Below are positions 10,124-27,789 of a stretch of DNA of 53,500 bases, one piece after another; position 1 is the first letter of the stretch; each line of letters begins with the position of its first letter. The stretch is from the NCBI RefSeq assembly GCF_013377085.1, contig NZ_JACAAX010000047.1:1-53500 (forward strand). The letters are read 5' to 3'. Below the pieces are notes generated by a model. That model had not been told where the DNA came from and searched no databases. It was given only the letters and a program-made list of their open reading frames with translations. The translations under genes were made by a program, and so were the position numbers. The stretch is from Rhodoplanes sp. Its GTDB lineage: Bacteria > Pseudomonadota > Alphaproteobacteria > Rhizobiales > Xanthobacteraceae.

Positions 10124-10191
10124 CGTGCCGATCCTTCTTCTGCGCCGGGCCGGCTGCGCTTTTCACGCGCCGCAGCACCGGCGCGGCGGCG

Positions 10192-10668: not shown

Positions 10669-10702
10669 CATTGCCCTCCATCGGCGATACGGTGTCATCG
10701 GT

Positions 10703-11626: not shown

Positions 11627-12378
11627 GGCTTCAGCTCCGGCAGCCGGTCGGGCAGATCGATGATCCCGGGCACCAGCTCGCGGCCGGCCTTGCTCTTCTC
11701 CTCCCAGCCGCGGCGGTAGTGGACGTCCTGGTGGCCGACGGCGAGCGCCACGGGCAGCACCTTGATCGCCGCCTCGGTGAGCACGCAGGACTTCTCGCAT
11801 TTGCCGCAGCCCGTGCAGGCGTCGGGGTGGACGACGGGCTCGAACACGGCATGCTTGCCGGTGCGGCGATTGTGGGTCTGGTCGAGCGTGATCGCCTTGT
11901 CGATCGCCGGGCAGACCCGGTAGCAGACGTCGCAGCGCAATCCCTGCAGATTGAGGCAGGTGTCACGCGACACGATCACGGCGACGCCCATGCGCGACAG
12001 CGAGATGTCGGTCAGACCTTTGTCGAGCGCGCCGGTCGGGCAGGCCTTTACGCACGGGATGTCGTCGCACATCTCGCACGGGATTTTTCGCGCCCGGAAA
12101 TAGGGCGTGCCGCCGGCCGCGCCCGCCGCCAGATCGGCCAGCTTCAGCGTGTCGTAGGGGCAGGCCCGCACGCACAATCCACAACGCACGCAGGCCGACA
12201 GGAACTTGTCTTCCGGCAAGGCGCCGGGCGGACGCAGTGCGTCGGCGGGCAGCGACCGCGACTGCGCCGAGAACAGCGCAAGCCCGAGCCCGCAGGCGCC
12301 CGCGCCTACCGCCGTGCGCAGGGTGCCCTGCACGAAGCGGCGGCGGGTCGGAGCCTTCTTGTCGGTCTCGGTCGCCAT
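11623..12378 (-). CDS. napG: NapG, exported ferredoxin-type [4Fe-4S] protein
   Basis: 251 residues. A twin-arginine leader ([20 protein letters not shown], about residues 11-30) directs export of the folded iron-sulfur protein. Four cysteine clusters follow: [43 protein letters not shown] and [12 protein letters not shown], i.e. four [4Fe-4S] centres as in E. coli NapG. It partners the membrane protein NapH, whose gene overlaps its stop. The napA gene ends 34 bp upstream of its... start side in the same transcript order A-G-H-B-C. Confidence 0.95.
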
Positions 12379-12412
12379 GGGCTTGCTCGCTCGATGCCGT
12401 GCGCGCGCCGGA

Positions 12413-14932
12413 TCAGATCGGCACCACCTTGCAGGCCGCCTTCTTGAAGTCGGTCTCCTTGGAGATCGGACAGGTGGCGTCGAGCGTCAGCTTGTTGACG
12501 AGCTGCGCCTCGTCGAAGAACGGGATGAAGACGAGGCCGACCGGCATCTTGTTGCGGCCGCGGGTCTCCACCCGGGTCAACACCTCGCCGCGCCGCGTGA
12601 TCACCTTGACGGACTGGCCGCGGCGCAGACCACGCTGCTGCGCGTCGTCCGGATGCATGAAGAGCTGCGCGGTCGGATACGAGCGATGCAGCTCGGGCAC
12701 GCGCCGCGTCATCGAGCCGGAGTGCCAGTGCTCCAGCACGCGGCCGGTGCACAGCCACATGTCGTAGTCCTTGTCCGGGCTCTCGGCCGCCGGCTCGTAG
12801 GGGCAGAAGATGATGCGCGCCCGGCCGTCCGGCTTGCCGTAGAACTTCACGCCCTCACCGGCCTTCACATACGGGTCGTAGCCTTCGCGGAAACGCCAGA
12901 GCGTCTCCTTGCCGTCGACCACCGGCCAGCGCAGCCCGCGTGCCTTGTGATAGAGCTCGAAGGGCCCGAGGTCGTGGCCGTGGCCGCGGCCGAAGGCGGC
13001 GTATTCCTCGAACAGGCCCTTCTGCAGGTAGAAGCCGAACGCGTTGGACTCGTCGTTGTCGAAGTCCTGCTGCAGCTCGGCGAGCGGGAACTTGTTCACG
13101 GCGCCGTTGGCATAGAGCACGTCGTAGAGCGTCTTGCCGCGAACCTCCGGCTTCTTGGCGATCAGCTCCTCGGGCCACACCTCCTCGACCTTGAAGTATT
13201 TCGAGAACTCGACGACCTGCCAGAGATCGGAGCGGGCCTCGCCCGGCGGCTTCACCTGCTGACGCCAGAACTGGCTGCGCCGCTCGGCGTTGCCGTAGGC
13301 GCCTTCCTTCTCCATCCACATCGCGGTCGGCAGTATCAGGTCGGCCGCCATCGCCGTCACGGTCGGATACGGGTCCGACACCACGATGAAGTTGTCGGGG
13401 TTGCGGTAACCGGGCAGTCCCTCGCCGTTCATGTTCGGCGCGGTCTGCATGTTGTTGGTGCACTGGACCCAGTAGGCGTTGAGCTTGCCGTCCTTGAGCA
13501 TCCGGTGCTGCACCACGGCGTGGTAGCCGATGTTGCCCGGCAGCGTGCCTTCGGGCAGTTGCCAGATCTTCTCGGAGAAGGCCCGGTGCTGCGGATTGGT
13601 GACCACGAGATCGGCCGGCAGGCGATGGGCAAAAGTGCCGACCTCGCGGGCCGTGCCGCAGGCCGAGGGCTGGCCGGTGAGCGAGAACGGGCCGTTGCCG
13701 GGCTCGGAGATTTTTCCGGTGAGCAGGTGGATGTTGTAGGCGAGATTGTTCACCCAGGTGCCGCGGGCGTGCTGGTTGAAGCCCATGGTCCAGTAGGAGA
13801 CGATCTTCTTCTTGGGATCGGCGTAGAGCTTCGCCATCCGCAGGAGCTTCTCGGGCTCGACGCCGGAGAGCTTCGCCGTGTAGTCGAGCGTGTATTTGGC
13901 GACCTGCTCCTTGTACTGGTCGAAGGTGATGTCGCGCATGCCGGCCGGATCGAGGGCGCCGCCCTGGCCGGCCTTGTGCGAGGCGTTCTTCGCTGCGACC
14001 TCCAGCGGATGGGTCGGCCGCAGCCCGTAACCGATGTCCTCGACCGTGTGGGCGAAGGCGACGTGCTTTTTCACGAAGTCCTCGTTCACGGCGCCGTTCT
14101 GGATGATGTAGTTGGCGATGTAGTTGAGGATCGCGAGATCCGTCTGCGGCACGAAGATCATGCCGTTGTCGGCGAGCTCGAAGCTGCGGTGCTCGAAGGT
14201 CGAGAGCACGTGCACCTCGCAGCCCTCGTGGGTCAGCCGCCGGTCGGTGAGCCGCGACCACAGGATCGGGTGCATCTCCGCCATGTTGGCGCCCCACAGC
14301 ACGAAGGCGTCGGCGTGCTCGACGTCGTCGTAGCAGCCCATCGGCTCGTCGATGCCGAAGGTGCGCATGAAGCCGGCAACCGCCGAGGCCATGCAGTGGC
14401 GCGCATTGGGATCGAGATTGTTGGAGCGGAACCCCGCCTTGTAGAGCTTCGCCGCGGCGTAGCCCTCCCAGATGGTCCACTGGCCGGAGCCGAACATGCC
14501 GACCGCCGAGGGGCCGCTCTTCTTCAGCGCAGCCTTCCACTTCTCGGCCATGATCTCGAAGGCCTGCGACCAGGTGATCGGGGTGAAGTCGCCGGTCTTG
14601 TCGAACTTGCCGTTCTTCATGCGCAGCAGCGGCCGCGTCAGGCGGTCCTCGCCGTACATGATCTTCGAGAGGAAATAACCCTTGATGCAGTTGAGGCCGC
14701 GGTTGACCGGCGCATCCGGATCGCCCTGGGTCGCCACCACCTTGCCGCCCTTGACGCCGACCAGCACGCCGCAGCCGGTGCCGCAGAAGCGGCAGACGCC
14801 CTTGTCCCAGCGGATGCCGTCGGGCCGCGTCACCTGGGCCTCGGCGGTTTCTGGAAGCGTCACGCCGGCGGCCGCCGCGGTGGCCGCCACGGCGGCCAGC
14901 TTCATGGTGTCGCGTCGCGTCTGCTCGGACAT
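12413..14932 (-). CDS. napA: NapA, catalytic molybdopterin subunit of periplasmic nitrate reductase
   Basis: 839 residues. NapA reduces nitrate to nitrite in the periplasm with a bis-MGD molybdenum centre. A Tat leader ([19 protein letters not shown], Arg6-Arg7) is followed by the [4Fe-4S] ligands Cys47, Cys50, Cys54 and Cys82 and by Cys180 in [10 protein letters not shown], the molybdenum ligand. Length and motif spacing are normal for NapA. The ATG at 14932 is preferred; a TTG nine bases upstream is in frame and overlaps the napD stop. NapD, encoded just before, is expected to bind the Tat leader. Confidence 0.97.
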
Positions 14933-14937
14933 TGCCT

Positions 14938-15204
14938 TCAAGCCTCCATGACGGGCGGAGCGGCAGAGCCGCGGTCCGGATCGAAACCGTGATAGACGAG
15001 CGCCGCGGCGACGACGCCGGGCAGCCGGTGAATCGCCGCGAGCCCGTCGATGGCGGTCGCGTGCGCCGTGTCCTCGAGCGTGACGATCAGCCGGCCGCCC
15101 TCGGCGGTGCCGTGCAGCTCGCTGCCCGGAATGTCCTCGAGCGCCCGCGCGACCTCGTCGGCGCGGGCCGGGACGGCATGGACGAGAACGCCGCAGACGT
15201 TCAT
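14938..15204 (-). CDS. napD: NapD, chaperone for the NapA Tat signal peptide
   Basis: 88 residues with the ferredoxin-like NapD fold: [20 protein letters not shown], then [18 protein letters not shown] and [14 protein letters not shown], all characteristic. NapD binds the NapA twin-arginine leader and prevents premature export. Its start overlaps the stop of the preceding NapF-position gene by four bases, and its stop is five bases before napA. Confidence 0.93.
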
Positions 15205-15548
15205 GACACCGCCTCCGGACCGGGATGCATGCGCGCGGTGCTGGCGCCGACCACGCTCGCGGTCAGCACGCCGGGAACGGCCGCGAGCGCGGCGAGCGCC
15301 CCCGCCACCGCATCGGCCGATACCTCGGTGGTCAGCCGGCCGGGCGGATCGCAGGTCAGCAGTCGGACGCCGGCGATCGCCGCGATCGCATCGGCGACGC
15401 TGTCGAGGCGGGCCGGCGCGGCCTGCACCAGGACCCGGGCCGTGGCGATCGTGGCAGGCCGCGTGCCGGCGGCCTCACCCTGCCATCCCCCGCCGAGGAA
15501 TCGGCGGCGGTCCAGCCCGAACGGGGCGGCTGTCGGCAAATCGGACAT
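15201..15548 (-). CDS. NapD-like protein with a NapF-like leader, at the napF position
   Basis: 115 residues. The first 25 residues ([13 protein letters not shown], Arg14-Arg16) look like the start of NapF, but no ferredoxin cysteines follow; only one Cys is present, whereas NapF needs several CxxCxxCxxxC clusters. Residues about 35-108 instead read as a second NapD-type domain: [52 protein letters not shown]. The gene occupies the slot that napF has in the E. coli order F-D-A-G-H-B-C. An ATG at 15677 would add 43 residues; the shorter start, with GAGG ten bases ahead, places the leader at the N terminus. Its job may be NapA maturation, by inference. Confidence 0.7.
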
Positions 15549-15963
15549 GCGGTGCAACCTCGACCTGGCGGAGAGCGGGGAGAGGAGCGAGACGTGAGGG
15601 ACCTCGGAGGGACGACCTGTAAGCTGGCGCGGGAATAAGCGAAACGATAGACTTATTCCTTGTTCCAGGTCAGTCATCTTTCCGATTCGAATTCATTGCC
15701 TATTTTTTGCGCTGCACAATGATTATTTTATAAGCATATCAATTGCATGATCGAGCCGTCCGGGCCGCGCTTCGGCACCGCGTCTCCGCGCCCGGACACT
15801 ATCGAAGTACCGCTGGATTCGTGATGATCCTGATGCGGCCAAACGCCGCTTTCGCCGCGACACGAACCTGGTCGCGACCGGCGCATGGTCCGTCGGTCGG
15901 CATCGCGGGCGGGGGGCTCCCACAATCCTCGAACGATCGAGGACCGATCTCGTCGATCCCGGC
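15549..15963 (-). promoter_or_regulatory. Intergenic region with probable nap promoter
   Basis: 415 bp between the first nap-operon gene and the end of the GH13 gene, containing no convincing gene. A strikingly AT-rich patch at about 15695-15745 lies upstream of the nap genes on their strand and is the likely promoter area. Only a half-site of an FNR-type box (ATCAA at 15738-15742) is visible, so oxygen control cannot be claimed. The part near 15750-15960 is ordinary GC-rich sequence. Confidence 0.35.
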
Positions 15964-18408
15964 TCACACCCGCTCGAACACCGCGACGGTGTTGGCCGGC
16001 AGGACCGCCGTGAAGGCCCCGTGCGTGGTCTCGACGTCACCGCGATTGAGCAGCCCGCGTCCCCCGTAAGCGACATCGTCGCTGTTGAGCACCTCGCGCC
16101 AGCGACCGTCGGCGAGCGCCGGATGCTGGATGCGGTAGCCGGCGCCGAAGTCGTGGTTGGCAAGGCTGGCCATCACCAGGAGATCCTGGCCGGCCTCGGC
16201 GCGCCGGAAGGCGAGCACCCGGTTGGCGTCGTGCACGTGCAGGATCTCGAGCGCGTGCGAGCGCAGCGCGGCGCGCCCGCGCCGCAGCCGGATCAGGTCC
16301 TGATAGAAGCGGAACAGGTTCGCGCCGATGCCGTCGCGCAGGCCGACGAAGTCCTCGCGGTGCGCGATGAAGTCGTCGTAGCGATATGGCTCCGAAGCGC
16401 CCACCTCCTCGCCCATGAAGAACATCGGCGTGCCCGGACCGAGCAGCGTGAGGCCGGCGACGACGCGGGTGCGGGCCTCGGCAAACAGGCGGGTGTCGCC
16501 GTAGAGCGGTGCGCCGTTGACGGCCACCAGGATGGTGCGGGCCGAGCGGATCGTCTGGCCGTTCTCGCGATAGCTCGAATTGCCGGCCTCGTCGTGCGAC
16601 TCGTGATAGACGACGCGGCCCGATGTGCTCGCCGCCATGGTGCCGGCGAACCACGACATGGCGAGCGGCCGGTCGTCGCCCCAGCCGGCGATCTTCAGCA
16701 GTCTAGCGCGGGAGGACTCGTTGGTCGCATCGCCGACGAGCTGGTGATAGTGCTCGGCGAACCAGGCCGCGTCGAAGCCGAGGCCGCCGGCGTCGGCGGA
16801 TTGCGTCACGGCCCGCCAACCGGAGTGATCCTCGGCGATCAGGACGGTGTCAGGGCGCACCAGCCGCATGGTGCGGGTCCATTCGCGCAGGAATTTTATG
16901 CCGAAGCCGCGCGCCCGCTCGGCGGCACGGCCGTCCGCATGAACCACGGCATAAGCGTGCAGCGAGGTGGTCTGGTCGACCCGGAAGCCGTCGACATGGA
17001 ACTCGTCCAAGAGCATGGCGGCGCTGCTGATGAACAGCTTTCGGACGTTCTCCTCGCAGAAACGCGGCGCCCAGCCGGTCGACATGTTGTCGACATAGCC
17101 GCCGTCCGGCTGCGCGTAGTCGTGCGGGCTGCCCTCGTACCAATAGTAGATGTTGCGGTCCGGTGCGGTGGAGTCGTAGGCCCACTCGGCCCGCTCGGCA
17201 TCCCTGACGAAGTGGTTGTAGACCACGTCCATGATCACGGCGATGCCGTGGCGGTGGCATTCGCGCACGAAGTGCTTGAACTGGTCGCGCCCGCCACCCG
17301 CATACTCGATGGCGAGGTAGTGCGACGAGCCATAACCCCAGCTCGCCCAGCCCTCGTACTCGGACAGCGGCATCAGCTCGACGGCGTTGACGCCGAGGTC
17401 GCGCAGATAGGGAAGCAGCTCGATCGCGTGCTTCAGCGTGCCGCGCGGCGCCTTGCCCGCCGCGAGCCCGTCGACATGCAGCTCGTAGATGATCAGATCC
17501 TCGAGCCGATGCGGCACCGGCCGGGCCGGATCGAGCTCGTCGCGCCAAAAATCGTCCTCGGACAGCCAGCGCGTCTCCGGGAAGACGGGCGAGTCGAACA
17601 ACTCGGTGACCTTTTCCGGGTCGACGACGACCGAGCAGCTCTTGGTGCCGTCGAGCTCCTGGCGCCGGCCGTTCCATTGCTGCTTCGCCGGATCGACGTC
17701 GCCGCTGCCAATCTGGCAGCGCGAGTAGAGATCGGTGCGATACGCGATCGTGCCGTCGTCGCGGGTGATGCGGTACATATAGAGCGAGTGGTCGCACTGC
17801 TCGAACCCGGCGACGCCGGGTTGGTCGGCGATCTCGGCGCTCCACACGCCGTCGTCGCTGCGCTGCATCGCGATCGTGGCGGCGACGCCGCGGCCGTCGT
17901 CGTGGATGTAGCCGCCATCGTCGTTGCCGCTGCCGGAGAGCCGGCTGCGCACCAGCTCGACGGTCTGCGCGTTCGGCGCCCACACGGCGAAGCGGAAGCG
18001 GGGCGTCGGCGCGCCGCCGGCGAACGCCCGGTTGGCGCCGAGCCGGCGGCAGTTCGTCAGCCAGTAGCGCTCGACCTGGTCGGCGGCGTCGGTCAGCACG
18101 AAGCGTCGGGTGCGGTCCGACGAGGCGGCATCGTTCGCCTCGGTCGCCACCGCACAGATGCTCGCCGCGTCCGCCGTGTCGACGATCACGGTCCAGTGGA
18201 ACTCGCGGCCCAGTTCGGCGTCGTCGAGCTGCACGGTGGCGCGGAAGGCCGGGCAGCCGTCCTCGGCCAAGACGCTTTCCATCGGCACGGTCGACCACTG
18301 CGCCGAGACGCGACCGGCAGCGTCCCAGCTCCCGGTCAGGCGCGGGTTTCTCAACGCGATGTGGCGCAGCCCGGTGAGATACTCGAAACGCACGGGACGA
18401 AGCGGCAT
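15964..18408 (-). CDS. GH13 alpha-amylase-superfamily protein, branching-enzyme/trehalohydrolase-like
   Basis: 814 residues. An N-terminal part with its own beta-sandwich-like sequence (MPLRPVRFEYLTGLRHIAL...) precedes a CBM48-type module (PRFRFAVWAPNAQTVELV) and the catalytic barrel. The GH13 regions are complete: DVVYNH (region I), HVDGFRVDQTT (Asp nucleophile near residue 477), VLIAEDHS (Glu acid/base near 524) and YHESHDE (near 604). It should hydrolyse or transfer alpha-1,4-glucan. Length exceeds a standard GlgB by about 100 residues at the N terminus, and no glycogen genes are nearby. It is the last gene of a four-gene minus-strand group, 18 bp after the EthD gene. Exact specificity is open. 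Confidence 0.85.
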   Translation of the reverse strand: MPLRPVRFEYLTGLRHIALRNPRLTGSWDAAGRVSAQWSTVPMESVLAEDGCPAFRATVQLDDAELGREFHWTVIVDTADAASICAVATEANDAASSDRTRRFVLTDAADQVERYWLTNCRRLGANRAFAGGAPTPRFRFAVWAPNAQTVELVRSRLSGSGNDDGGYIHDDGRGVAATIAMQRSDDGVWSAEIADQPGVAGFEQCDHSLYMYRITRDDGTIAYRTDLYSRCQIGSGDVDPAKQQWNGRRQELDGTKSCSVVVDPEKVTELFDSPVFPETRWLSEDDFWRDELDPARPVPHRLEDLIIYELHVDGLAAGKAPRGTLKHAIELLPYLRDLGVNAVELMPLSEYEGWASWGYGSSHYLAIEYAGGGRDQFKHFVRECHRHGIAVIMDVVYNHFVRDAERAEWAYDSTAPDRNIYYWYEGSPHDYAQPDGGYVDNMSTGWAPRFCEENVRKLFISSAAMLLDEFHVDGFRVDQTTSLHAYAVVHADGRAAERARGFGIKFLREWTRTMRLVRPDTVLIAEDHSGWRAVTQSADAGGLGFDAAWFAEHYHQLVGDATNESSRARLLKIAGWGDDRPLAMSWFAGTMAASTSGRVVYHESHDEAGNSSYRENGQTIRSARTILVAVNGAPLYGDTRLFAEARTRVVAGLTLLGPGTPMFFMGEEVGASEPYRYDDFIAHREDFVGLRDGIGANLFRFYQDLIRLRRGRAALRSHALEILHVHDANRVLAFRRAEAGQDLLVMASLANHDFGAGYRIQHPALADGRWREVLNSDDVAYGGRGLLNRGDVETTHGAFTAVLPANTVAVFERV

Positions 18409-18426
18409 GCGGGCCTCCGGCCAGGA

Positions 18427-19137
18427 TCACGAGGGGACGTAGGGCCGCGGCTGCGGGCCGATGATCCAGTGCTCGCGCAGCAGGATGCGATGCAGCCAGC
18501 GCGTTTCGGCGCACAGCCGCCAGTCGGCCGCGAGCAACGTGCCCTCGATCGACCGCTCGGCGGCGGCCGCCGCGTCGGCGTGGTCGAACCAGAACTGCTC
18601 GACGCAATCGAGGATCGCCTCGCCGACCCCATAGGAGCCGTCGCGGACATGGCCCTGCTGATAGCGGCGCAGTCCCGGCAGGACCTTGGCCTTGTCGGCG
18701 TGGGCCCCGAGCAGATGCGCGCGGTAGTCGGAGAGCGGCAGGCCTTCGCGGCGCTTGGAGAGGGCCAGCAGCAGGACCTGGGCTGCGTCGCGCGCCTCGG
18801 GCGGGCCGGGCAGCAACAGATGCGCCGTGGTGTCGAGCACGACGGTCTGCCAGAACGCCGCCCAGCTCGGCTCGTCGGCGCGGGCGCCCTCGATCAGCTC
18901 GGGCGTCTGCAGCGAGGCGACCTGCGTCTCCTCGTCGTCGAGCCAGATCTCGGCGACGCCGCCCCACGGCGGGTCGGCGGGATCGCCCGGTCGGGCGATG
19001 CGGGTATCGACCTTGTATTTGCGGATCTGCGGGATCTTGCTCGCATAGCGCACCGCATGGACCTCGACCCAGTAGCGCTGGAAATCGACCTCGCTCATGC
19101 CGGGCTTTGCGTGCGCGAAGATGAACTGGTGGATCAT
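18427..19137 (-). CDS. Protein with two EthD-like (dimeric alpha-beta barrel) domains
   Basis: 236 residues. The first half opens MIHQFIFAHAKPGMSEVDFQ and continues with RYWVEVHAVRYASKIPQIRKY, the EthD pattern of a ferredoxin-like barrel strand followed by a helix and a Trp-x-x-x-His. The second half repeats the plan (LLALSKRREGLPLSDYRAHL, LGAHADKAKVLPGLRRYQQ, then EQFWFDH). EthD proteins act beside oxygenases or as small-molecule decarboxylases or isomerases; here no cytochrome P450 is near, and the partners are sugar-active and PfpI-type proteins. Role unknown. Confidence 0.75.
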   Translation of the reverse strand: MIHQFIFAHAKPGMSEVDFQRYWVEVHAVRYASKIPQIRKYKVDTRIARPGDPADPPWGGVAEIWLDDEETQVASLQTPELIEGARADEPSWAAFWQTVVLDTTAHLLLPGPPEARDAAQVLLLALSKRREGLPLSDYRAHLLGAHADKAKVLPGLRRYQQGHVRDGSYGVGEAILDCVEQFWFDHADAAAAAERSIEGTLLAADWRLCAETRWLHRILLREHWIIGPQPRPYVPS

Positions 19138-19157
19138 GGCGCTCCCACGATGCTTCC

Positions 19158-19259
19158 GTCATTCCGGGGCGCCGCGCAGCGGCGAGCCCGGAATCCATAC
19201 ACACAGACCGGGGTTATGGGTTCCGGGTTCGCGGCCTGTCGGCCGCGCCCCGGAACGAC
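19158..19259. repeat. Intergenic palindromic repeat, family 1 (copy 2)
   Basis: About 102 bp with the same GTCATTCCGG...CCGGAACGAC ends, central GGGGTTATGGGTTCCGGG and GGCCTGTCGGCC hairpin as the copy at 5570-5673; the two share long identical blocks. It lies between the EthD gene and the tandem PfpI gene inside the putative operon. Confidence 0.85.
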
Positions 19260-19272
19260 GGCCGCTGGTTCC

Positions 19273-20823
19273 TCACCACCCCCATCGCCGCAACGGCGGG
19301 TCGCCGTCCAACACCTCGATCAGCTTGCGGCCGGTGAGCGCGCTGTCCGGCGTCGAGCGGCCGGTGACGAACGGATAGTCGACCAGCACGCTGGTCGGAT
19401 GACCGAAATTGCCGTGATAGCCGCCGTCCGGCCCGGTGGCGTCGCGCAGGATGAACTCCAGCGGATAAGGCGGCGGACCCATGTTGAAATCGAGGAAGGT
19501 GTTGCGGGCGCGCACGAACGCCGTGCCGTCCTTGTAGTCGTATTCCAGGCAGTGCCCGGTGACGTGCTTGCCCCAGATGATGCTCTTGCGGATGTTCATG
19601 TCGCGCGCGAAGGCGAGGCAGGCGACGCCGTAGCACTCGGCGGCGATCGGCTTGCCGGCGTCGAGGAAGGCGAGGATCAGGTCGTGGACCCGCTGGTTGT
19701 TGACGAGATCGACGACGGGCCCGGAGCCGCCGACGATCAGGATCGAGTCGTAGCGCGCGATACTTTTCCGCGCCTCTTCCAGCTCGCGGTTGTAGGCTTC
19801 GAGCAAACGCACGAAGCTCGGCGCCGAGAAATAGGGGCGCTCGGGGAACCAGGCGGCGAGCGAGATCGGCGTCTGCAGGCGGCGGCCGCGCTCGGTGGAC
19901 GGGTCGTCGTACTCGCGCACGCGCGCCGCCATCTCAGGGCTCGTCACCGGCCGCTGCAGCGGCGGATCGAAGAAGTCCGGATCCATGCTGACCGGAATGG
20001 CGTTCGGTCTGCGGCCGTTGGGCGTGCAGAAATCGACCGTGTAGCCGGCGCGGTCGAATTCTTCCAATGGCCCGACCAGCTCCTCGCCCCAATAGCCCCA
20101 TTCGGAGAGCACGATCAGGATGTGGCGTTGTCCGCGCCGTTCCGGTTCGGCCGGCAACGGATCGACGGGCGGCGCCGCCGGTCCCGCCAAAATCGCGTCC
20201 TTGATGGCGTCGACGAAGGCTTCGGTGGCGTGCCAGGAATTGTCGGTGACGAGATCGCCGTCGACCACCACCTGCTTGTCCGCCGGCGTGCCGGGAACGC
20301 AGGGCGTGTAGATGCCGCCGGCATTGACCACGTCGGCCAGCACCACCTTGTTGCAGATCACCCGGCGGCCGGCGAGCAGATCGGGCGACGGCGTCAGCAG
20401 CCACAGGCCGTGGCAGGCCGCGCCCTTGACGATGTTCGGGTTCGCCATGGCGCGGCGGAAGAAGCGCGCCGCCGGGACGTTGCGGGCCACCTCGGCGGCA
20501 TTGGCCGCCGTGATGTCCTCGCGCTCGCTCCAGCGCAGCCGCACGCTGGTGTAGTTCGCTGCGACGATCACGGCGGCGTACTCGTCCGGGCTGACGTGAT
20601 CAAAATCCTTTTCGACGTCGATCCATTCGAGCTGATCGACTGCGCCCGGCTCGACCGTCGAGTAGAAGCGCTGGCTCGGCTGACCCCACAAGCGTGAGAC
20701 CAGCTCGACGGTCGCCCCGTAGGAGGCGAAGCGCTCGCGATAGATCCGGATTTCTCCCGGGATGAACTGCGACTCGACGACGACGGCGATCTTCTTGCCG
20801 GCGAGCGGAGTGTTCGACATCAC
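19273..20823 (-). CDS. Tandem DJ-1/PfpI (class I glutamine amidotransferase-like) protein
   Basis: 516 residues built from two DJ-1/PfpI domains. The first (about 8-210) opens GKKIAVVVESQFIPGEIRIY and carries GAACHGLW with the nucleophile-elbow Cys near residue 137. The second (about 230-490) opens RHILIVLSEWGYWGEELVGP and carries AAECYGVA with Cys near 396. Double-domain members of this family are uncommon; relatives act as proteases, chaperones, glyoxalases or isonitrile hydratases. It is 31 bp downstream of the AGE-fold gene and probably co-transcribed. Two adjacent Met codons open the frame (20823 and 20820). Confidence 0.8.
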   Translation of the reverse strand: MMSNTPLAGKKIAVVVESQFIPGEIRIYRERFASYGATVELVSRLWGQPSQRFYSTVEPGAVDQLEWIDVEKDFDHVSPDEYAAVIVAANYTSVRLRWSEREDITAANAAEVARNVPAARFFRRAMANPNIVKGAACHGLWLLTPSPDLLAGRRVICNKVVLADVVNAGGIYTPCVPGTPADKQVVVDGDLVTDNSWHATEAFVDAIKDAILAGPAAPPVDPLPAEPERRGQRHILIVLSEWGYWGEELVGPLEEFDRAGYTVDFCTPNGRRPNAIPVSMDPDFFDPPLQRPVTSPEMAARVREYDDPSTERGRRLQTPISLAAWFPERPYFSAPSFVRLLEAYNRELEEARKSIARYDSILIVGGSGPVVDLVNNQRVHDLILAFLDAGKPIAAECYGVACLAFARDMNIRKSIIWGKHVTGHCLEYDYKDGTAFVRARNTFLDFNMGPPPYPLEFILRDATGPDGGYHGNFGHPTSVLVDYPFVTGRSTPDSALTGRKLIEVLDGDPPLRRWGW

Positions 20824-20854
20824 ATGCTCCTGGCGCAGCGAAGGTGAGACGGGA

Positions 20855-22900
20855 TCAGGGCGCGATCGCGCTGAACTGGACGACGAGCGAGATGGTGCCG
20901 TCGCGGCGATCGCCGTCGAGGCCCGCGAGCGGCACCTGGAAGTCGTCGGGGTTGGCGGGCTTCAGCCCCGCCGTCACGTCGACGCCGTTGGCGATGATCC
21001 GCTCGATCGTCAGCCGCCCGGGCGGCATGAAGTCCGGCAGCACGTTGATGGTGGTCTGGGTGGTCGACCGCGTGATGCGGAAATACATGCAGAAGCCGTT
21101 GTCGGCGCCGTTGCCGGCGTCCACGTAGGTGCGCGTGTAGACGTGGGCCAGATAGGCGAGCTCGAAGGCGTGATAGCCGATCGCGTGGCTGCTCTTCATG
21201 CCGTACTGGCCGTCGAGAATCGGGAGCCCGTCCTCGGTGGTGCGGAAGTAATAGCCCTGCCGATCGCGGTCGAGGAAGAACAGGTTCCAGAACGCGGAGC
21301 TCTCGCGGGCGAGCGCGAGATAGTGCGGACTGCCCGGTGTCGCGCCGTGCAGGATCAGATAGGCGAGGATGCCCTGCTCCTGCTGCCAGAAATCCTTGGT
21401 GGCGCCCCAGGCGAACTGGATCGGCACGCCGCCGGTGGGCTCGCGCTCGACGCAATCGAAGATGCCGCCCCGCACCATGTCGAGGCCGACCACCGCCATG
21501 TTGTCGCCGAGCTGGCGGGCGACGGCGAGACAACGGGTGGCGCGCTGATCGTCGGCCGCAGCCTCGACCGGGTGCCCCATGGCGCGGCGGCGCGAGGCGC
21601 GCATGTGGAAGTAGTTGGCGCAGCGCGTCAGGTTCCAGGCGATCTTGAGATTGTGACCGACCACGGCGCGGTTCTGCTGCCAGGAGTAGGTGTGGTCCGG
21701 CGTCCAGTCGTCGTGGAAGCGCTCGTTGACATATTTGGACTTGGGGTCCGGGAATTTTTCGACGATCAGCGAGGTCGTCTCCTCGAGAATGCCGATGCAG
21801 ACCTTCAACAGGTCGCCCAGATAGGCGCGGGCACTGCCGGCCGGCAACGGCTCGAGCGTCAGGATCAGGTTGACCAGATAGGCCGGGATATGGTCGCCGA
21901 CAGAGTTCCAGTTCTTGCGGCGATAGTTCTGGCCGAGCGCCGGCGTGTCAGGCCGCATGGTGACGGGATCGAGGTGCGAGTAGTAGCCGCCCGTTCCGGC
22001 GAAGCCCTTGTCCTTGGCGCTCGGCGGATCCCAGTAGAAGGCCTGGAACGTGTTGATGGTCCGCCTGACGTCCTCCAGCACCTCGGTGTCGAGCGTGATG
22101 CGGTAGTACTGGGTCAGGCCGGCGAGCGCGTAGATCTGCTCGTAGAGAGGAATCGTGTTGGTGTCGTCCGGGCCCTGCGAGGCGAAATACAGGCTCTCGC
22201 CCTTCTCGCCCTCCAGGTGGCGGCGCCGGCCATAGGCCCAGAAGCAGTACTCGCCGTCGTGGCTCGACGAGCGGAACGCCTCGCGCAGGTATTTCATCGC
22301 CGCCTGGGCGGCGAGAAAGTACCGCTCGGCGCCCGTGATCAGGAAGGCGGTCGAGAGATCGTAGAGCAGCCGCGACAGCACGGCGCATTCCTGCACGTCG
22401 TCGTCGGTCGGCTGGCCGAGGATGTTCAGGTTGGTGTGATAGAACTTGGCGAAATCATCGATGGTGTAGTTGCGCCGCTGGTCGAACAGATGGTCGAGGA
22501 TGCGGTCCGCCATCTGGGTCACCTGCACGAGCCACCAGTGCGTCTCCTCGAAGAGATAGCGGGTGGGGCTCGAATGCAGCAGATACACGGTGCGCGCCTC
22601 GAAGCGCACGTGCTCGCCGTCCTCCTGATAGATCCCGCCGATGAACACGCGCCGGTCGATCGCGATGTATTTCTTCAGGGCGAAGAGCGGACCGGCCTCG
22701 GGCGGCACGCCCGCCGGATCGGGCACGCGGTCGCGCGAGATCTGGTCGAGATTGGTCAGCACCTGAAACGACGTGCTCGGGCCGACGATCGCCTCGAAGA
22801 CGTCGCCGCTGCGGGCCTGGACGCTGAATGCGGCGCGCGCCTCGTCGATGGCGACGACGGTCCCCGCGAGCGTGATGGTCTGGTTGGAATTCCGCCGCAT
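20855..22900 (-). CDS. AGE-fold ((alpha/alpha)6 barrel) protein, N-acylglucosamine 2-epimerase-like
   Basis: 681 residues. An N-terminal beta-rich part of about 120 residues (TITLAGTVVAIDEARAAFSV) is followed by an alpha/alpha barrel of the AGE/cellobiose-epimerase clan. Recognisable helices include YDLSTAFLITGAERYFLAAQ, YEQIYALAGLTQYYRITLD, NRAVVGHNLKIAWNLTRCAN and FAWGATKDFWQQEQGILAY, whose His, Trp and Gln-Glu residues match the substrate pocket of that clan. A C-terminal beta domain (about 600-681) ends the protein. It is larger than ordinary AGE enzymes (about 400 residues). As first gene of the minus-strand group it faces btaA divergently. Activity on a sugar is likely; the sugar is not known. 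Confidence 0.75.
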   Translation of the reverse strand: MRRNSNQTITLAGTVVAIDEARAAFSVQARSGDVFEAIVGPSTSFQVLTNLDQISRDRVPDPAGVPPEAGPLFALKKYIAIDRRVFIGGIYQEDGEHVRFEARTVYLLHSSPTRYLFEETHWWLVQVTQMADRILDHLFDQRRNYTIDDFAKFYHTNLNILGQPTDDDVQECAVLSRLLYDLSTAFLITGAERYFLAAQAAMKYLREAFRSSSHDGEYCFWAYGRRRHLEGEKGESLYFASQGPDDTNTIPLYEQIYALAGLTQYYRITLDTEVLEDVRRTINTFQAFYWDPPSAKDKGFAGTGGYYSHLDPVTMRPDTPALGQNYRRKNWNSVGDHIPAYLVNLILTLEPLPAGSARAYLGDLLKVCIGILEETTSLIVEKFPDPKSKYVNERFHDDWTPDHTYSWQQNRAVVGHNLKIAWNLTRCANYFHMRASRRRAMGHPVEAAADDQRATRCLAVARQLGDNMAVVGLDMVRGGIFDCVEREPTGGVPIQFAWGATKDFWQQEQGILAYLILHGATPGSPHYLALARESSAFWNLFFLDRDRQGYYFRTTEDGLPILDGQYGMKSSHAIGYHAFELAYLAHVYTRTYVDAGNGADNGFCMYFRITRSTTQTTINVLPDFMPPGRLTIERIIANGVDVTAGLKPANPDDFQVPLAGLDGDRRDGTISLVVQFSAIAP

Positions 22901-23296
22901 CGGCACCCCCTGCCCTCCGTCCGTTGCTCCCGCCGTCCGCCGCCGCCACCCGGGCATGCGCCGTCCGTCCCGCGCCGGAGGACTCCGGCGCGGCTGAAAC
23001 GGCTCGGCATCGGGCCGGGACGAGGGCCCGCGAGACGGCGGGCTCCGTGACGTCGTTGGTATCGGCGGCGTCTACTTTTAGGAGAGCATAATTAGAATTG
23101 CAACCTAGGAATGCAGCGGTTGGCGATCACGACTTCGCGTGGCGCACCGGCCGGCACCTCGGCAACGTCACGGGGCTCGGTGTTGCACATGCGGCGTCAT
23201 GAAGACGTCACGGGAGGCTCGATACACACCGAAGACCGGCCGCCGGCCGAGTCCGTGCGTTGCACAGCGTCCCGTCCGCATTCATCGAGGCCCGAT
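22901..23296. other. Divergent intergenic region between the AGE-fold gene and btaA
   Basis: 396 bp if btaA starts at 23297. A short AT-rich patch (about 23070-23105, including AGCATAATTAGAATTGC) could hold promoters for both directions. No direct repeat resembling a Pho box (CTGTCAT-type) is visible. The btaA frame is open back to an ATG at 23111, but that upstream part does not resemble the family. Confidence 0.4.
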
Positions 23297-24535
23297 TTGA
23301 CCTCCTCGTCGAAGCTTCGCTGCGGCGTCAGCGCCGCCGTCCGCCGCACCCCGGCGCTCTCGCGCCAGGGCCTCTCCGAGCTTGTGTTCGCCTGGATGTT
23401 CCGCGGCCTCGTCTATCCGCAGATCTGGGAGGACCCGGCCGTCGACATGGAGGCGCTGGCGATCTCCCGCGATCACCACGTCGTGGCGATCGCGTCCGGC
23501 GGCTGCAACGTGCTCTCCTATCTCACGGCGAACCCGGCGCGCATCACCGCCGTCGACGTCAACACGGCGCATGTCGCGCTTGTGCGGCTCAAGCTCGCCG
23601 CCGCCCGGCATCTGCCGTCGTGGCGCGCCTTCTACCGCTTCTTCGGCACCGCCGACGAGGCCGAGAATGTCGAGGCCTATTGGAACCATCTGGCGCCGCG
23701 GCTCGATGCCGACACGCGCGCCTATTGGGAGGGCCGCGGCGCCATGGGGCTCGGCCGCCGGCGCATCTCGCTGTTCGCCCGCAACGTCTACAAGCACGGT
23801 CTGCTCGGCCATTTCATCGGGCTCGGCCATGCCGTGGCGCGCCTCTACGGCGTCGATCTCAAGACGGTCCTGCGGGCGCGCTCGCGCGAGGAGCAGTACC
23901 AGTTGTTCGAGACCGTGCTGGCGCCGCTGTTCGAGAAGCGCTTCGTGCGCTGGGCCGCCGACCGGCCGCTGGCGCTCTACGGGCTCGGCATCCCGCCGGC
24001 CCAGTACGAGGCGCTGGCCTCGGCCGGCAGCGACATGGCCTCGGTGCTGCGCAGCCGCGTCGAGCGGCTGAGCTGCGGCTTCAGCCTGAACGACAACTAT
24101 TTCGCCTGGCAGGCCTTCGGCCGCAGCTACGGCGACGGCGAGCACGACCCGGTGCCGCCCTATCTCGAGCGGGGCAATTTCGCTGCCGTCAGCGCCCGGG
24201 CAGACCGCGTCGCCGTCGTCAACGCCTCGATGACCGAGCACTTGGCAGCGCAGCCGGCGCAGTCGGCCGACCGCTATGTGCTGCTCGACGCCCAGGACTG
24301 GATGACGGACGCCCAGTTGAACGCGTTGTGGGGCGAGATCACCCGCACGGCCAGGCCGGGCGCCCGCGTGATCTTCCGCACGGCGGCCGAGCCGAGCCTG
24401 CTGCCCGGCCGGCTCGACGACGCGATCCTGTCGCGCTGGCGCTACGAGGAGGCCGCCTCGCGGGCCTTCACGGCACGCGACCGCTCCGCCATCTATGGCG
24501 GCTTCCATCTCTACGTCCTGGCCGACGAGGTGTGA
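23297..24535 (+). CDS. btaA: BtaA, S-adenosylmethionine:diacylglycerol 3-amino-3-carboxypropyltransferase
   Basis: 412 residues from a TTG start with GAGG seven bases upstream. The start is a judgement: ATGs at 23111 and 23189 and a GTG at 23255 are in frame, but family members begin about ten to twenty residues before the LS.QGL segment seen here. The enzyme moves the aminocarboxypropyl group of SAM to diacylglycerol, the first step of betaine lipid (DGTS) synthesis. Diagnostic stretches are LVYPQIWEDPAVDMEAL, VAIASGGCNVLSYL, the helical ALYGLGIPPAQY, NYFAWQAFGRSY, LLDAQDWM and SAIYGGFHLY. btaB follows after two bases, giving the classical btaAB pair. Confidence 0.9.
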   Translation: MTSSSKLRCGVSAAVRRTPALSRQGLSELVFAWMFRGLVYPQIWEDPAVDMEALAISRDHHVVAIASGGCNVLSYLTANPARITAVDVNTAHVALVRLKLAAARHLPSWRAFYRFFGTADEAENVEAYWNHLAPRLDADTRAYWEGRGAMGLGRRRISLFARNVYKHGLLGHFIGLGHAVARLYGVDLKTVLRARSREEQYQLFETVLAPLFEKRFVRWAADRPLALYGLGIPPAQYEALASAGSDMASVLRSRVERLSCGFSLNDNYFAWQAFGRSYGDGEHDPVPPYLERGNFAAVSARADRVAVVNASMTEHLAAQPAQSADRYVLLDAQDWMTDAQLNALWGEITRTARPGARVIFRTAAEPSLLPGRLDDAILSRWRYEEAASRAFTARDRSAIYGGFHLYVLADEV

Positions 24536-24537
24536 GA

Positions 24538-25188
24538 ATGGGGTCCGACGCGACCGACCGGATGAACCGGATGTATCGCCGCCAGCGGCATCTCTACGAC
24601 TTCACCCGGAAATACTATCTGCTCGGCCGCGACGATCTGATCGACGGGCTGAAGCCAGGCGCCGGCGAGCGCGTGCTGGAGATCGGCTGCGGCACCGGTC
24701 GCAATCTGGTCCGGGCCGCGCAACGCTGGCCGCAGGCGCGCTTCTTCGGCATCGACGTCTCAACCGAGATGCTGTCGACCGCGATGGAGCAGATCGCGGG
24801 CGCGGGCGTCGCCCGGCGGGTCCGGATCGCCCATGCCGATGCAACCCTGCTCGACCCGGTCGCCGTGTTCGGCGAGCCGGCCTTCGAGCGCGTGTACTTC
24901 TCCTACACGCTGTCGATGATCCCGGACTGGCAGGCGGCGGTCGACCGCGCGCTCGCCATGGTGGCGCCGGGCGGCGAGCTGCAGATCGTCGATTTCGGTG
25001 CCCAGGAGGGACTGCCGACCGGCCTGCGGGCGGTGCTGCGGGCCTGGCTGTCGCTGTTCGACGTGACGCCGCGCGACACGTTGGAAGCCGGCCTGGCGGC
25101 CCGCTCACGGGCGCTCGGCGCCATGCTGACGGTCGAGCGCCCCTACCGCGGCTACGCGCAACGCGCCGTGGTGCGGGTCGCGCCATAG
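24538..25188 (+). CDS. btaB: BtaB, SAM-dependent N-methyltransferase of betaine-lipid synthesis
   Basis: 216 residues with a class I methyltransferase fold: motif I VLEIGCGTGRNL (near residue 42), FFGIDVSTEML, and FSYTLSMIPDWQAAVDRAL as the post-I/IV region. BtaB trimethylates diacylglyceryl-homoserine to DGTS. The MNRMYRRQRHLYDFTRKYYL opening is typical. The ATG is two bases after the btaA stop; a GTG six bases earlier is also in frame. Betaine lipids usually replace phospholipids when phosphate is scarce, but no Pho box is visible here. Confidence 0.9.
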   Translation: MGSDATDRMNRMYRRQRHLYDFTRKYYLLGRDDLIDGLKPGAGERVLEIGCGTGRNLVRAAQRWPQARFFGIDVSTEMLSTAMEQIAGAGVARRVRIAHADATLLDPVAVFGEPAFERVYFSYTLSMIPDWQAAVDRALAMVAPGGELQIVDFGAQEGLPTGLRAVLRAWLSLFDVTPRDTLEAGLAARSRALGAMLTVERPYRGYAQRAVVRVAP

Positions 25189-25746: not shown

Positions 25747-26707
25747 TCTCGGACTCTCCTGAAAGGGAATGGAACGCTTCCTATAACGAATGAATGCGAT
25801 CCGACCGGCGTAGAAATCGGCGCGAGTGGGTCACAAAAAGGTCTTCTCACGCGCCCGAGGCAACAGCAACAAAAAAACTCTTAGGCAAATTCCGCGGTAA
25901 AATTGCAAATACTCGGACACATTACTATCGGTTGACGAATTACCGGCACCGGGGCGGGCTCTCGCCCAAACACACGTCACTCGACTTGGAATCGGCAATT
26001 TGGATTGGTCCGATTGTATTATATCCGACTAAAAAAGCAAGACGAAACACGCTAGAAACGCTCCGGATAACTTCGGTCGAAAACCCCGGAGACCGGCAAT
26101 TCCGCCGAATCGGCGGGCAACTCTGACGGATCAGCGCCCCGAAAGAGTTCCGATATCCGAAACCAGACCAGCGATTCGCGTGCCGGCGGAAGCTAATCTC
26201 CGGTTTGAGTGCCCAAACCGGCGACGGTATCGCATCCCGTCGGGTCCACGGCGGCGAAGGCGCCCGGCCGGTACTTACCTCAAAAAGCCCGTCCGGCGGG
26301 CCGGGACGCCGCAGCGGTAATTTCTGGACGATCCCCCGGAATTATCGGGGCTATCGATCTGCCATTCGCGGCGTTCTTCGGCGGCGAGACAATGGCGCCG
26401 AAGCCGGTTTTCCGACCGAAGCTCGATGCCTGCCACCGGCGGCGGTATTGTTCGGTGGCAGCTTTTTGGTGGTCCACCGACTGAAAGCCCGGCGACCGAT
26501 TCGCAGAGGCTTGTTCGGATCCCGACGCCGCCCCGACCGCCCTCGAGGCTGCGCCACCGCCTGGGTGTTGCTCGCGCTCGGTGTGCTGCTGCGCCGCCCG
26601 TGATTGGGAGGAATGCCGGCGGGGCCGTTGCGCCGACGCGACGGCCGACGCATCATGCGGGCCCGCCGTTCCCCCCCTTCCCCCCCCTTTCCCGTTGCGA
26701 GGCATCG
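25747..26707. other. 961-bp AT-richer non-coding stretch beside the H-NS-family gene
   Basis: No open frame here has a family resemblance or a good ribosome site. From about 25770 to 26200 the sequence is visibly richer in A and T than anything else in the window, with runs such as ACAAAAAAACTC and ATTATATCC, then it returns gradually to high GC. It holds the promoter of the H-NS-like gene and of the downstream monooxygenase gene; it could also hide a small RNA or be decayed foreign DNA. Confidence 0.5.
26671..26693 (+). repeat. Homopolymeric C tracts upstream of the ABM gene
   Basis: Two runs of seven and eight cytosines separated by TT, followed by TTT and CCC, lie 15-37 bp before the start codon at 26708. 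Such tracts are slippage-prone; here they overlap the likely leader and spacing to the ribosome site. Confidence 0.6.
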
Positions 26708-27007
26708 ATGGTCCTGGAAATCGCGCAGATCGAGGTGAAGCCCGGCCAGGAGGCCGACTTCGAGGCCGGCGTCGCCAAGGCCGTGCCGCTCTTCCGCCGC
26801 GCCAAGGGCTGCTCGGGCGTGACCCTGCAACGCAGCGTCGAGAAGCCGACGCGCTATCGGCTGTTCGTCAAATGGGCGACGCTGGAGAACCACACGGTGG
26901 ACTTCCGCAACTCGCCCGACTTCCAGGAGTGGCGTGCCTGCGTCGGCCACACCTTCGCCGGCCCGCCCGAGGTCGAGCACGTGCAGCAGGTGGTGGACGG
27001 GTTCTGA
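26708..27007 (+). CDS. Antibiotic biosynthesis monooxygenase (ABM) domain protein
   Basis: 99 residues, one complete dimeric alpha-beta barrel of the ABM family: MVLEIAQIEVKPGQEADFEA, then KAVPLFRRAKGCSGVTLQRS, YRLFVKWATLENHTVDFRNS and QEWRACVGHTFAGPPEVEHV. Members are cofactor-free monooxygenases, haem-degrading proteins or quinone-modifying enzymes; no haem-ligand signature is evident, so the substrate is open. The ATG at 26708 matches the domain start. A GST gene follows 83 bp later on the same strand, which suggests a shared role in detoxifying reactive aromatics. Confidence 0.85.
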   Translation: MVLEIAQIEVKPGQEADFEAGVAKAVPLFRRAKGCSGVTLQRSVEKPTRYRLFVKWATLENHTVDFRNSPDFQEWRACVGHTFAGPPEVEHVQQVVDGF

Positions 27008-27090
27008 TCAGCAGATCCGGTCCCGCCCTTCTGTCCGAAGAGTCTGTCTCGTCGCCCTAACCGCAGCCTCGACCCGCGGAGCATGCCGCC

Positions 27091-27789
27091 ATGATCGATC
27101 TCTACGCCCTGACCAGCCCCAACGTCCAAAAGGTCTTCATCGCGCTGGAGGAGCTGGCGCTCCCCTACGACACCATCCTGGTCGACGTGTGGAAGGGCGA
27201 GCAGTTCCGTGAGGAGTTCGCCCGCCTCAATCCCAACCGGAAAATCCCGGTCATCGTCGACCACGACGGGCCGGGCGGCAAACCCGTCACGGTGTTCGAG
27301 TCGGGCGCCATCCTGATCTATCTGGCCGAGAAGACCGGACGGCTGCTTCCCGCCGACCCGCTGGCGCGGCTCGAGGTTCTGCAGTGGCTGATGCTGCAGA
27401 TGTCGACGCTCGGCCCGATGTCCGGCCAGCACGTGCATTTCTCGAAATTCGCCCCGCCCGGCAACGATTACGGGGCCAGCCGCTTCCGCACCGAGGTGAA
27501 CCGCCTGTTCGACCTCTATGACGGGCGACTGGCATCGCGCGACTGGGTCGCCGGCGACGACTATTCGATCGCCGATATCGCCGCCTTCCCCTGGCTGCGC
27601 AACCACGGCTTTCTCGGCATCTCGGTCGAAGGCCGTCCGAACCTGACCCGCTGGGTGGAGCGGATCGCGGCGCGGCCCGCCGTGCAGCGGGCCATGGCCA
27701 AGGTCGCCACCATCCCGTCGTCGCGCGACACCGCGAGCGAGGACGACCGCGACCGCATTTTTCAGCGTGGCCGCTGGGCCCGCGGCTGA
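27091..27789 (+). CDS. Glutathione S-transferase family protein (Nu/YghU-like or beta-like)
   Basis: 232 residues. The thioredoxin-fold N-terminal domain (about 1-82) has MIDLYALTSPNVQKVFIALE, the NPNRKIPVIVDHDG cis-proline loop and the FESGAILIYLAEKTG glutathione-binding Ser. The helical C-terminal domain contains DWVAGDDYSIADIAAFPWLR, the usual GST hallmark. The TSPNxxKVxIxLEE opening resembles bacterial Nu-class/YghU proteins. It probably conjugates or reduces electrophiles with glutathione. It ends 20 bp before a hairpin shared with the convergent FmdB gene. Confidence 0.9.
   Translation: MIDLYALTSPNVQKVFIALEELALPYDTILVDVWKGEQFREEFARLNPNRKIPVIVDHDGPGGKPVTVFESGAILIYLAEKTGRLLPADPLARLEVLQWLMLQMSTLGPMSGQHVHFSKFAPPGNDYGASRFRTEVNRLFDLYDGRLASRDWVAGDDYSIADIAAFPWLRNHGFLGISVEGRPNLTRWVERIAARPAVQRAMAKVATIPSSRDTASEDDRDRIFQRGRWARG

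Follow-up and report, generated by a model that had tools for sequence, protein, structure and literature searches.

The closest described counterparts of the locus treated here are the operons of glycogen metabolism, the proteins of the DJ-1 superfamily and the sugar 2-epimerases. Glycogen (glg) operons are, to our knowledge, without genes for AGE-fold, PfpI, thiamine-pyrophosphate (TPP, or ThDP), EthD or ankyrin proteins. Members of the DJ-1 superfamily such as DJ-1D, PfpI and Hsp31 have glyoxalase III or deglycase activities. Within the AGE superfamily, an excerpt of one report describes a triple-histidine centre for cellobiose epimerases (PMC5726027), and an excerpt of another places Glu251 of YihS 4.4 Å from C2 of its substrate (PMC6333288). 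The locus is a cluster of four genes in one complete 53.5-kb contig of Rhodoplanes sp. (NZ_JACAAX010000047.1, positions 1 to 53,500; genome 6.48 Mb), referred to below as the window, and it brings relatives of all three together: an AGE-fold, a PfpI-ThiJ, an EthD and a GH13 protein. That these genes work together is highly probable. The broader view which we tentatively favour sees the four as members of a larger, horizontally spread metabolic system.

The four genes lie in the following order, all on the minus strand:

20855..22900, minus strand, AGE-fold protein of 681 amino acids (aa), candidate sugar C1/C2 epimerase/isomerase (open reading frame (ORF), Pfam, structure model, Foldseek, alignment)
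19273..20823, minus strand, PfpI-ThiJ tandem of 516 aa with a GTG start (ORF, Pfam, structure model, alignment)
18427..19137, minus strand, double EthD-domain protein of 236 aa (ORF, Pfam, NCBIfam)
15964..18408, minus strand, GH13 protein of 814 aa (ORF, Pfam, NCBIfam, alignment)

The AGE-fold ORF (22957..20855) amounts to 700 aa from its first ATG and to 681 aa from the ATG at 22900. The ORF listing gives spacings of 31, 135 and 18 bp, and thereby bears out the four co-oriented genes, their sizes and their gaps as set down in a preliminary description of this DNA. The same description had called the PfpI and EthD proteins two-domain fusions, which is indeed seen. For the PfpI-ThiJ protein this is nothing out of the ordinary in the cluster family, other members of which have the two domains as separate genes.

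Within the genus the cluster is a conserved unit. The AGE gene was found in five of 100 genomes searched, namely that of the window and four of five others of Rhodoplanes, and in none of the 94 remaining genomes at E 1e-3. The fifth same-genus genome, which is without the gene, is 58% complete. In the four that carry it (L020-L023, the L numbers being our locus numbers) the four homologues lie side by side and are 71-87% identical to those of the window, except that the EthD protein of PH10 falls to 60% in its second half. The reading frame of that gene (L022 11767-11071) shifts between its two domains, perhaps through a sequencing error or through decay. Three of the four genomes also retain the flanking DUF3419 and napA genes; neither was found in the 20 kb taken from PH10 (L022), so the four-gene block holds together even with different flanks. 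Such adjacency is more than chance. Among the matches listed, the nearest named genomes by AGE protein are those of Rhodoplanes tepidamans and R. serenus.

Beyond the genus the AGE gene is widespread yet patchy, since only four of 398 phylum-draw genomes, that of the window included, have it at E 1e-20. A tblastn search of plasmids with the AGE protein returned 19 records, from Streptomyces, Nostoc, Gloeothece, Gemmobacter, Runella, Deinococcus and others, and the surroundings of nine were inspected. In eight of the nine (not Persicobacter) the gene is variously accompanied by genes for DJ-1/PfpI, type 1 glutamine amidotransferase, thiamine-pyrophosphate enzyme, EthD, GMC oxidoreductase, SnoaL/NTF2, VOC and GlgX or another GH13 protein. 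Two Nif11 leader-peptide genes lie between EthD and GMC in the Nostoc plasmid cluster (L008 18149-18809). Scanning named genomes with a profile yielded at least 587 matching stretches and at least 482 AGE relatives at E 1e-3, from which the best 80, and not a random draw, were taken as loci. In a quick tree (SH-aLRT support, midpoint root), 86 AGE proteins separate with support of 100 into type A (43 rows, including the window) and type B (43 rows). Each type mixes many phyla, and the tree covers sixteen phylum-level labels. These 16 groups need 26 changes against a minimum of 15, which alone is no proof of transfer; horizontal transfer gains weight from the plasmid location. Together, the plasmid, named-genome and neighbourhood data rule out an isolated oddity of one genus.

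Neighbourhoods were compared over 91 stretches treated with a simple ORF caller: the window, the plasmid loci L008-L015, L021, L025 and the 80 named-genome loci. Sixteen loci were excluded, being short pieces (L001-L007), the locus of a distant AGE protein (L016) and duplicates or short copies of genomes already included (L017-L020, L022-L024, L026). L082 and L106 were dropped because they held no AGE ORF above 450 aa, leaving 89 AGE loci. Family profiles were run on the ORFs, and partners were counted on the AGE strand within about 10 kb. Many contigs are cut, and the counts are lower bounds because the caller missed a PfpI gene at L027 that was found in the same genome (L020).

The commonest parts of the system are the AGE-fold enzyme, one or more PfpI/ThiJ enzymes and an alpha-glucan enzyme, which is GH13 here and GlgX in the sister type. 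All three stand on one strand in 57 of the 89 loci. The 46 type A loci hold a GH13 protein of about 820 aa in 32 cases, a best match to the PfpI fusion in 33, a single PfpI in 11, TPP in 21, EthD in 12, GMC in 10 and GlgX in three; without the five Rhodoplanes the GH13 and EthD figures are 27/41 and 7/41. Among the 43 type B loci GlgX is present in 41, a single-PfpI-type protein in 25, TPP in 12, GMC in nine and EthD in four. The one type B partner tested, that of L011, passes the GlgX cut-off (716 vs 640.9 bits). The type of AGE protein is thus tightly paired with the type of glucan enzyme, which speaks for a joint function. Further recurrent parts are TPP enzymes, double EthD proteins, MIase-SnoaL or SnoaL proteins, GMC oxidoreductases and ankyrin proteins. 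Eleven loci (L008, L014, L035, L037, L048, L052, L060, L061, L079, L084, L091) hold AGE, PfpI, GH, TPP and EthD genes together, in shuffled order and with some members partial; three short or cut contigs (L033, L044, L090) show none of the AGE partners. Six partner families (PfpI, GH, TPP, GMC, EthD, VOC) lie 260 times on the AGE strand and nine times on the opposite one, compared with 316 and 205 for the other ORFs of at least 250 aa.

That the four genes might be chance neighbours with unrelated duties, as their broadly functional families and gaps of up to 135 bp could suggest, is hardly credible, being already contradicted by recurrence in many phyla in shuffled order, by this 260:9 strand bias and by the fusions and the presence pattern of distant genes described below. 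Adjacency of homologues is thus common across phyla, and the absence of any such adjacency, by which the preliminary description would have let its proposal fall, was not what we found. Its four-gene system holds as a conserved unit and is too small, as at least TPP, MIase-SnoaL and ankyrin parts lie elsewhere. It had also proposed a search for the four families in the order of the window: the families do recur together, but in shuffled order.

Pairwise protein distances were correlated with one Rhodoplanes kept and after removal of the PfpI-ankyrin fusion L064 from the PfpI rows. Two flaws of the alignments are that one row of alignment A4 (L029) has its second half out of frame and that four rows of alignment A3 have over-long starts. 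The distances of AGE and PfpI-fusion proteins correlate with r = 0.84 (n = 15), and those of AGE and GH13 with r = 0.58 (n = 22); none of 2000 shuffles reached as high in either case. For AGE and TPP r is 0.35 (n = 19; 21/2000 shuffles as high) and for GH13 and EthD it is 0.51 (n = 7; 33/2000). The correlations therefore indicate that AGE, PfpI and GH13 travel together.

Several of the recurrent parts missing from the window are found on other contigs of the same genome. A cluster TPP protein used as query gave seven matches there at E 1e-20, and one full-length protein stands out (contig C31, 51% identity); with the TPP protein of a Sphingobium cluster it shares 63% identity over 576 residues. 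At a strict E-value of 1e-100 TPP was found in five of 39 genomes, exactly the five that carry the AGE gene, and in one of the 398 phylum-draw genomes, again that of the window (the latter scan scored the top three candidates per genome). Searching by pattern brought up no ankyrin repeats, despite proteins shown by Pfam to be ankyrin proteins, and phmmer was used instead. Ankyrin family 1, of about 350 aa, is matched strongly at L035, L037, L048, L052, L057, L060, L061, L064 and L091 and weakly at L025, L040 and L077; family 2 occurs at L025, L039, L040, L050, L054, L066, L074 and L077. The genome of the window has one match to family 1 at E 1e-10 (contig C16, 58% over 343 residues), and its gene lies directly behind a MIase-SnoaL fusion gene, the product of which is 70% identical to the Sphingobium copy (L060) situated between EthD and ankyrin genes. 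At E 1e-40 the ankyrin gene was found in four of the 39 genomes, all of the same genus and with the cluster, and in all four it adjoins MIase-SnoaL, which was looked for in the genome of the window and beside the ankyrin gene of the three others. MIase-type domains occur in five cluster stretches (L035, L037, L052, L060, L061), and SnoaL proteins also recur among the cluster loci. The best explanation is that this Rhodoplanes genome has its system divided among three loci, ie the window, the MIase-SnoaL and ankyrin pair, and the TPP gene; the same parts are held together in Sphingobium L060 and others.

Gene fusions join these parts directly. A single frame of 1090 aa at L052 encodes a SnoaL-ankyrin-TPP fusion, and there are a PfpI-ankyrin fusion at L064 and SnoaL-ankyrin fusions at L048, L061 and L077. 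Two clusters contain a prenyltransferase-type alpha-alpha toroid fused to ankyrin repeats (L039 13666-15759, L054 4996-7125), and in a third the toroid domain, ankyrin repeats and SnoaL are fused together (L050 4558-7089). Because TPP, SnoaL and PfpI are all found joined to ankyrin repeats, we propose that the ankyrin protein may act as a scaffold.

The AGE-fold protein meets the profile of the AGE superfamily (GlcNAc_2-epim, PF07221, 34.9 bits, cut-off 23.4), with 12.9 of 800 bits against the equivalog for the cellobiose 2-epimerase EpiA (NF041848), ie below that cut-off. Its structure model (pLDDT 91.9, pTM 0.93) consists of an N-terminal beta domain (about 4-111), an (alpha/alpha)6 barrel (about 122-593) and a C-terminal beta domain (about 602-678). 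Foldseek ranks a glucose 2-epimerase (8h1l, TM to target 0.69) and a cellobiose 2-epimerase (3wkf, 0.80) at the top, with YihS and the N-acylglucosamine epimerases behind them. The barrel and the profile match are shared with the 2-epimerases and isomerases of the superfamily; unlike the solved members, the protein has an extra beta domain at each end, is about 260-290 residues longer and is only 12-17% identical to the Foldseek hits. All 54 alignment rows share the five residues R177, H337, H416, K419 and H577. The three histidines stand at or near helix starts, a likeness to the triple-histidine centre described in the excerpt on cellobiose epimerases (PMC5726027). The YihS motif PGHWIEWG corresponds to VGHNLKIAW in the window, so that the invariant K419 would occupy the position of the YihS glutamate, three residues after the histidine of the GH motif; equivalence to the residues of known epimerases is placed by motif only. 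The protein is a candidate sugar C1/C2 epimerase/isomerase. A Persicobacter protein of the AGE family with the same GH..K motif (L016 5188-7020) adjoins a mannonate dehydratase gene.

Both halves of the PfpI-ThiJ protein are recognised by Pfam (ThiJ_like 69.9 bits; DJ-1_PfpI 65.4 bits, the cut-off for the latter being 26.6), ie the superfamily profile is matched, and the score for the PfpI subfamily TIGR01382 is below cut-off (92.3 of 139.05 bits). Domain 1 carries E17, C137 and H138 and domain 2 carries C397 and Y398; the E-C-H set is complete in 17 of 17 rows, as is C137, and C397 is kept in 16 of 17. The individual domains are modelled well (pLDDT 81.6), with their packing unsure (pTM 0.56). 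As in Arabidopsis DJ-1D, there are two DJ-1-type domains per chain with E-C-H in the first; unlike DJ-1D, the second is ThiJ_like with C-Y in place of C-H, and identity is 15-16%.

In the EthD protein both domains are recognised over cut-off (PF07110, 66.8 bits against 22; TIGR02118, 52.4 against 30.5), as befits the family, and they are the only two EthD domains in the genome at E 1e-3 by profile search. It differs from the usual EthD protein in fusing two domains, and the only solved relative among the matches listed has E 0.5. The GH13 protein has an N-terminal region of its own, a CBM48 domain (about 130-228), a GH13 barrel and a C-terminal beta domain (Pfam Alpha-amylase, CBM_48 and Alpha-amylase_C). 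Its catalytic set, placed by motif as the nucleophile D478, the acid/base E526 and the third carboxylate D606, is complete in 23 of 23 rows. It shares the CBM48, GH13 and C-terminal beta domains and the full catalytic residues with GlgB, TreZ and GlgX. The labels GlgB (TIGR01515, 156.5 of 463.95 bits; NF008967, 187.9 of 577) and TreZ (TIGR02402, 168.6 of 538.8) were both rejected, as the scores are far below the equivalog cut-offs; the protein is related to both.

GlgA, GlgB and GlgX proteins over cut-off are encoded on other contigs of the genome, so the organism probably makes glycogen, and the GH13 of the cluster is an extra, divergent enzyme. The cluster resembles glg operons in its GlgX-type or GH13 enzyme, and two Streptomyces plasmids carry a maltosyltransferase-type gene, GlgB and a maltokinase near it. 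It differs in that the GlgB and GlgX of this genome are on a contig other than the cluster's, and a plain glycogen operon is ruled out, with the glg genes elsewhere and the extra partners recurring.

The chemistry we propose, to which we would give rather less than even confidence, takes a reducing sugar from an intracellular alpha-glucan through enediol and carbonyl steps. The GH13 enzyme would trim intracellular glycogen to reducing-end glucose or a malto-oligosaccharide. The histidine centre of the AGE-fold protein, modified by the invariant lysine, would then form a C1/C2 enediolate by epimerase or isomerase chemistry, and the TPP enzyme could make or break the C-C bond adjoining the carbonyl. 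The EthD, MIase and SnoaL domains might isomerise, dehydrate or cyclise enol or lactone intermediates, the PfpI/ThiJ protein may act on a reactive dicarbonyl intermediate, and the ankyrin protein would hold the enzymes together. A more specific version is doubtful, ie a horizontally mobile pathway from stored glycogen to a small metabolite of carbonyl or lactone type that would be new, with an ankyrin-assembled complex and, in some hosts, gating by partner-switching or STAND proteins. The preliminary description had suggested a modified glucan or glycoside, which is compatible with the data and is not established by them; ordinary alpha-glucan breakdown is favoured as the point of entry because the sister type has a canonical GlgX, as judged by the one protein tested. 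Its statement that no known pathway combines these families is supported: none of the papers listed for the literature searched is on the combination, and since its coverage was without most subscription journals and bioRxiv, a description may exist. If the proposal is correct, it would represent a common bacterial route out of glycogen that is lacking from textbooks, an epimerase-fold enzyme with an invariant active-site lysine, and a use of ankyrin repeats as bacterial enzyme scaffolds. The case also shows that a compact cluster in one genome can be a fragment of a system with genes elsewhere, a point to bear in mind in cluster-based genome mining.

Several results weigh against this proposal or limit it. 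TPP and EthD genes lie on the AGE strand within 10 kb in only 33 and 16 of the 89 loci, respectively, and are therefore not obligatory in cis; L025 and two cut Magnetococcales loci (L036, L050) have AGE, PfpI and GH13 and neither TPP nor EthD. The distances of AGE and EthD are not correlated outside Rhodoplanes (r = -0.22, n = 8, 1607/2000 shuffles as high; 0.60, n = 11, with all Rhodoplanes), nor are those of GH13 and TPP (r = -0.02, n = 11, 929/2000), so EthD and TPP appear to be swapped more freely than the other members. PH10, the genome with the disrupted EthD frame, has the TPP gene and no ankyrin match. The co-occurrence of TPP and ankyrin genes with the cluster is confounded by kinship, being confined to one genus; the cis clusters of other phyla provide the independent support. 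The nearest GMC relative in the genome of the window, one gene in two pieces, is 41-44% identical, too little to establish it as the orthologue, and it was not accepted as a partner. Finally, profile alignment of the AGE-fold protein to YihS (hhalign, global and local) gave no usable residue mapping.

The alternative that survives best, although we consider it unlikely, is that the system is protective, coupling stress-gated mobilisation of glycogen to the control of carbonyl damage. GH13 or GlgX would free sugar, the AGE-fold enzyme would interconvert it, and PfpI/ThiJ, VOC and EthD proteins would clear reactive carbonyls. In keeping with this, Foldseek places Arabidopsis DJ-1D first for the PfpI-ThiJ protein, and as the nearest tandem, with Pseudomonas PfpI and the stress protein DR1199 the nearest single domains; VOC genes recur, in 6/46 type A and 6/43 type B loci. 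The type B clusters of Streptomyces plasmids, Runella and Deinococcus have STAS genes beside AGE and GlgX, some with anti-sigma and SpoIIE genes. A small STAS-family gene stands between AGE and GlgX at L009, L012-L014, L086, L093, L095 and L105, followed in the plasmid examples by STAS, ATP-binding or SpoIIE genes, and judging by these families it is probably a partner switch built into the cluster. Damage control leaves the TPP enzymes, GMC oxidoreductases, alpha/beta hydrolases and multiple SnoaL proteins unexplained, as well as the fusion of ankyrin repeats to TPP and SnoaL.

Catabolism of an external glycoside or lactone-type compound is improbable. GH13 would act on the glycosidic part and EthD, MIase and SnoaL on the aglycone or ring, and EthD and muconolactone-isomerase-like domains do recall catabolic dimeric alpha/beta barrels. 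There is no transporter among the annotated recurrent families (families 17, 28, 29 and others are unannotated, and 18 has no Pfam match), and the GlgX partner of type B points to internal glycogen.

Very unlikely indeed is a conflict (defence) role, in which the cluster would be the effector arm of a system gated by signals. The distribution of the cluster, patchy and partly plasmid-borne, would fit, and a large STAND-type protein family is present in 11 of the 91 stretches, nSTAND1 being found in the three checked with Pfam (one with TIR) and a fourth being annotated as NB-ARC:

L045 13815-18656, STAND-type NTPase, nSTAND1 with TIR
L012 15304-18495, STAND-type NTPase, nSTAND1 with WD40
L048 15342-19808, STAND-type NTPase, nSTAND1 with WD40
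L010 3063-6584, STAND-type NTPase, annotated NB-ARC

The other 80 stretches have no member of this family, nor does the clustered part of the window, and among the PADLOC defence models the TPP protein and the four cluster proteins match only that of GlgB, by way of GH13. With no more than weak hints from neighbourhoods, a defence role was rejected.

Two sets of genes flank the cluster in the window:

9395-15677, minus strand, nap-type (periplasmic nitrate reductase) set comprising a molybdopterin enzyme, NapD and, by eye, cytochrome- and ferredoxin-like frames
23111-25188, plus strand, DUF3419 gene (Pfam 374.7 bits) followed by a methyltransferase-like frame (by eye), divergent and upstream of AGE

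The nap-type set starts 286 bp downstream of the GH13 stop on the same strand; it includes a molybdopterin oxidoreductase, and its NapD is marginally below cut-off (27.9 vs 28 bits). The DUF3419 gene and the methyltransferase-like frame resemble the betaine-lipid genes btaA and btaB. A consensus scan of the window gave no promoter-like sites and four terminator-like sites, against 2.9 expected. Further along the plus strand, at 26426-27789 of the window, a small ABM-like ORF is followed by a glutathione-S-transferase-like ORF, both recognised by eye only.

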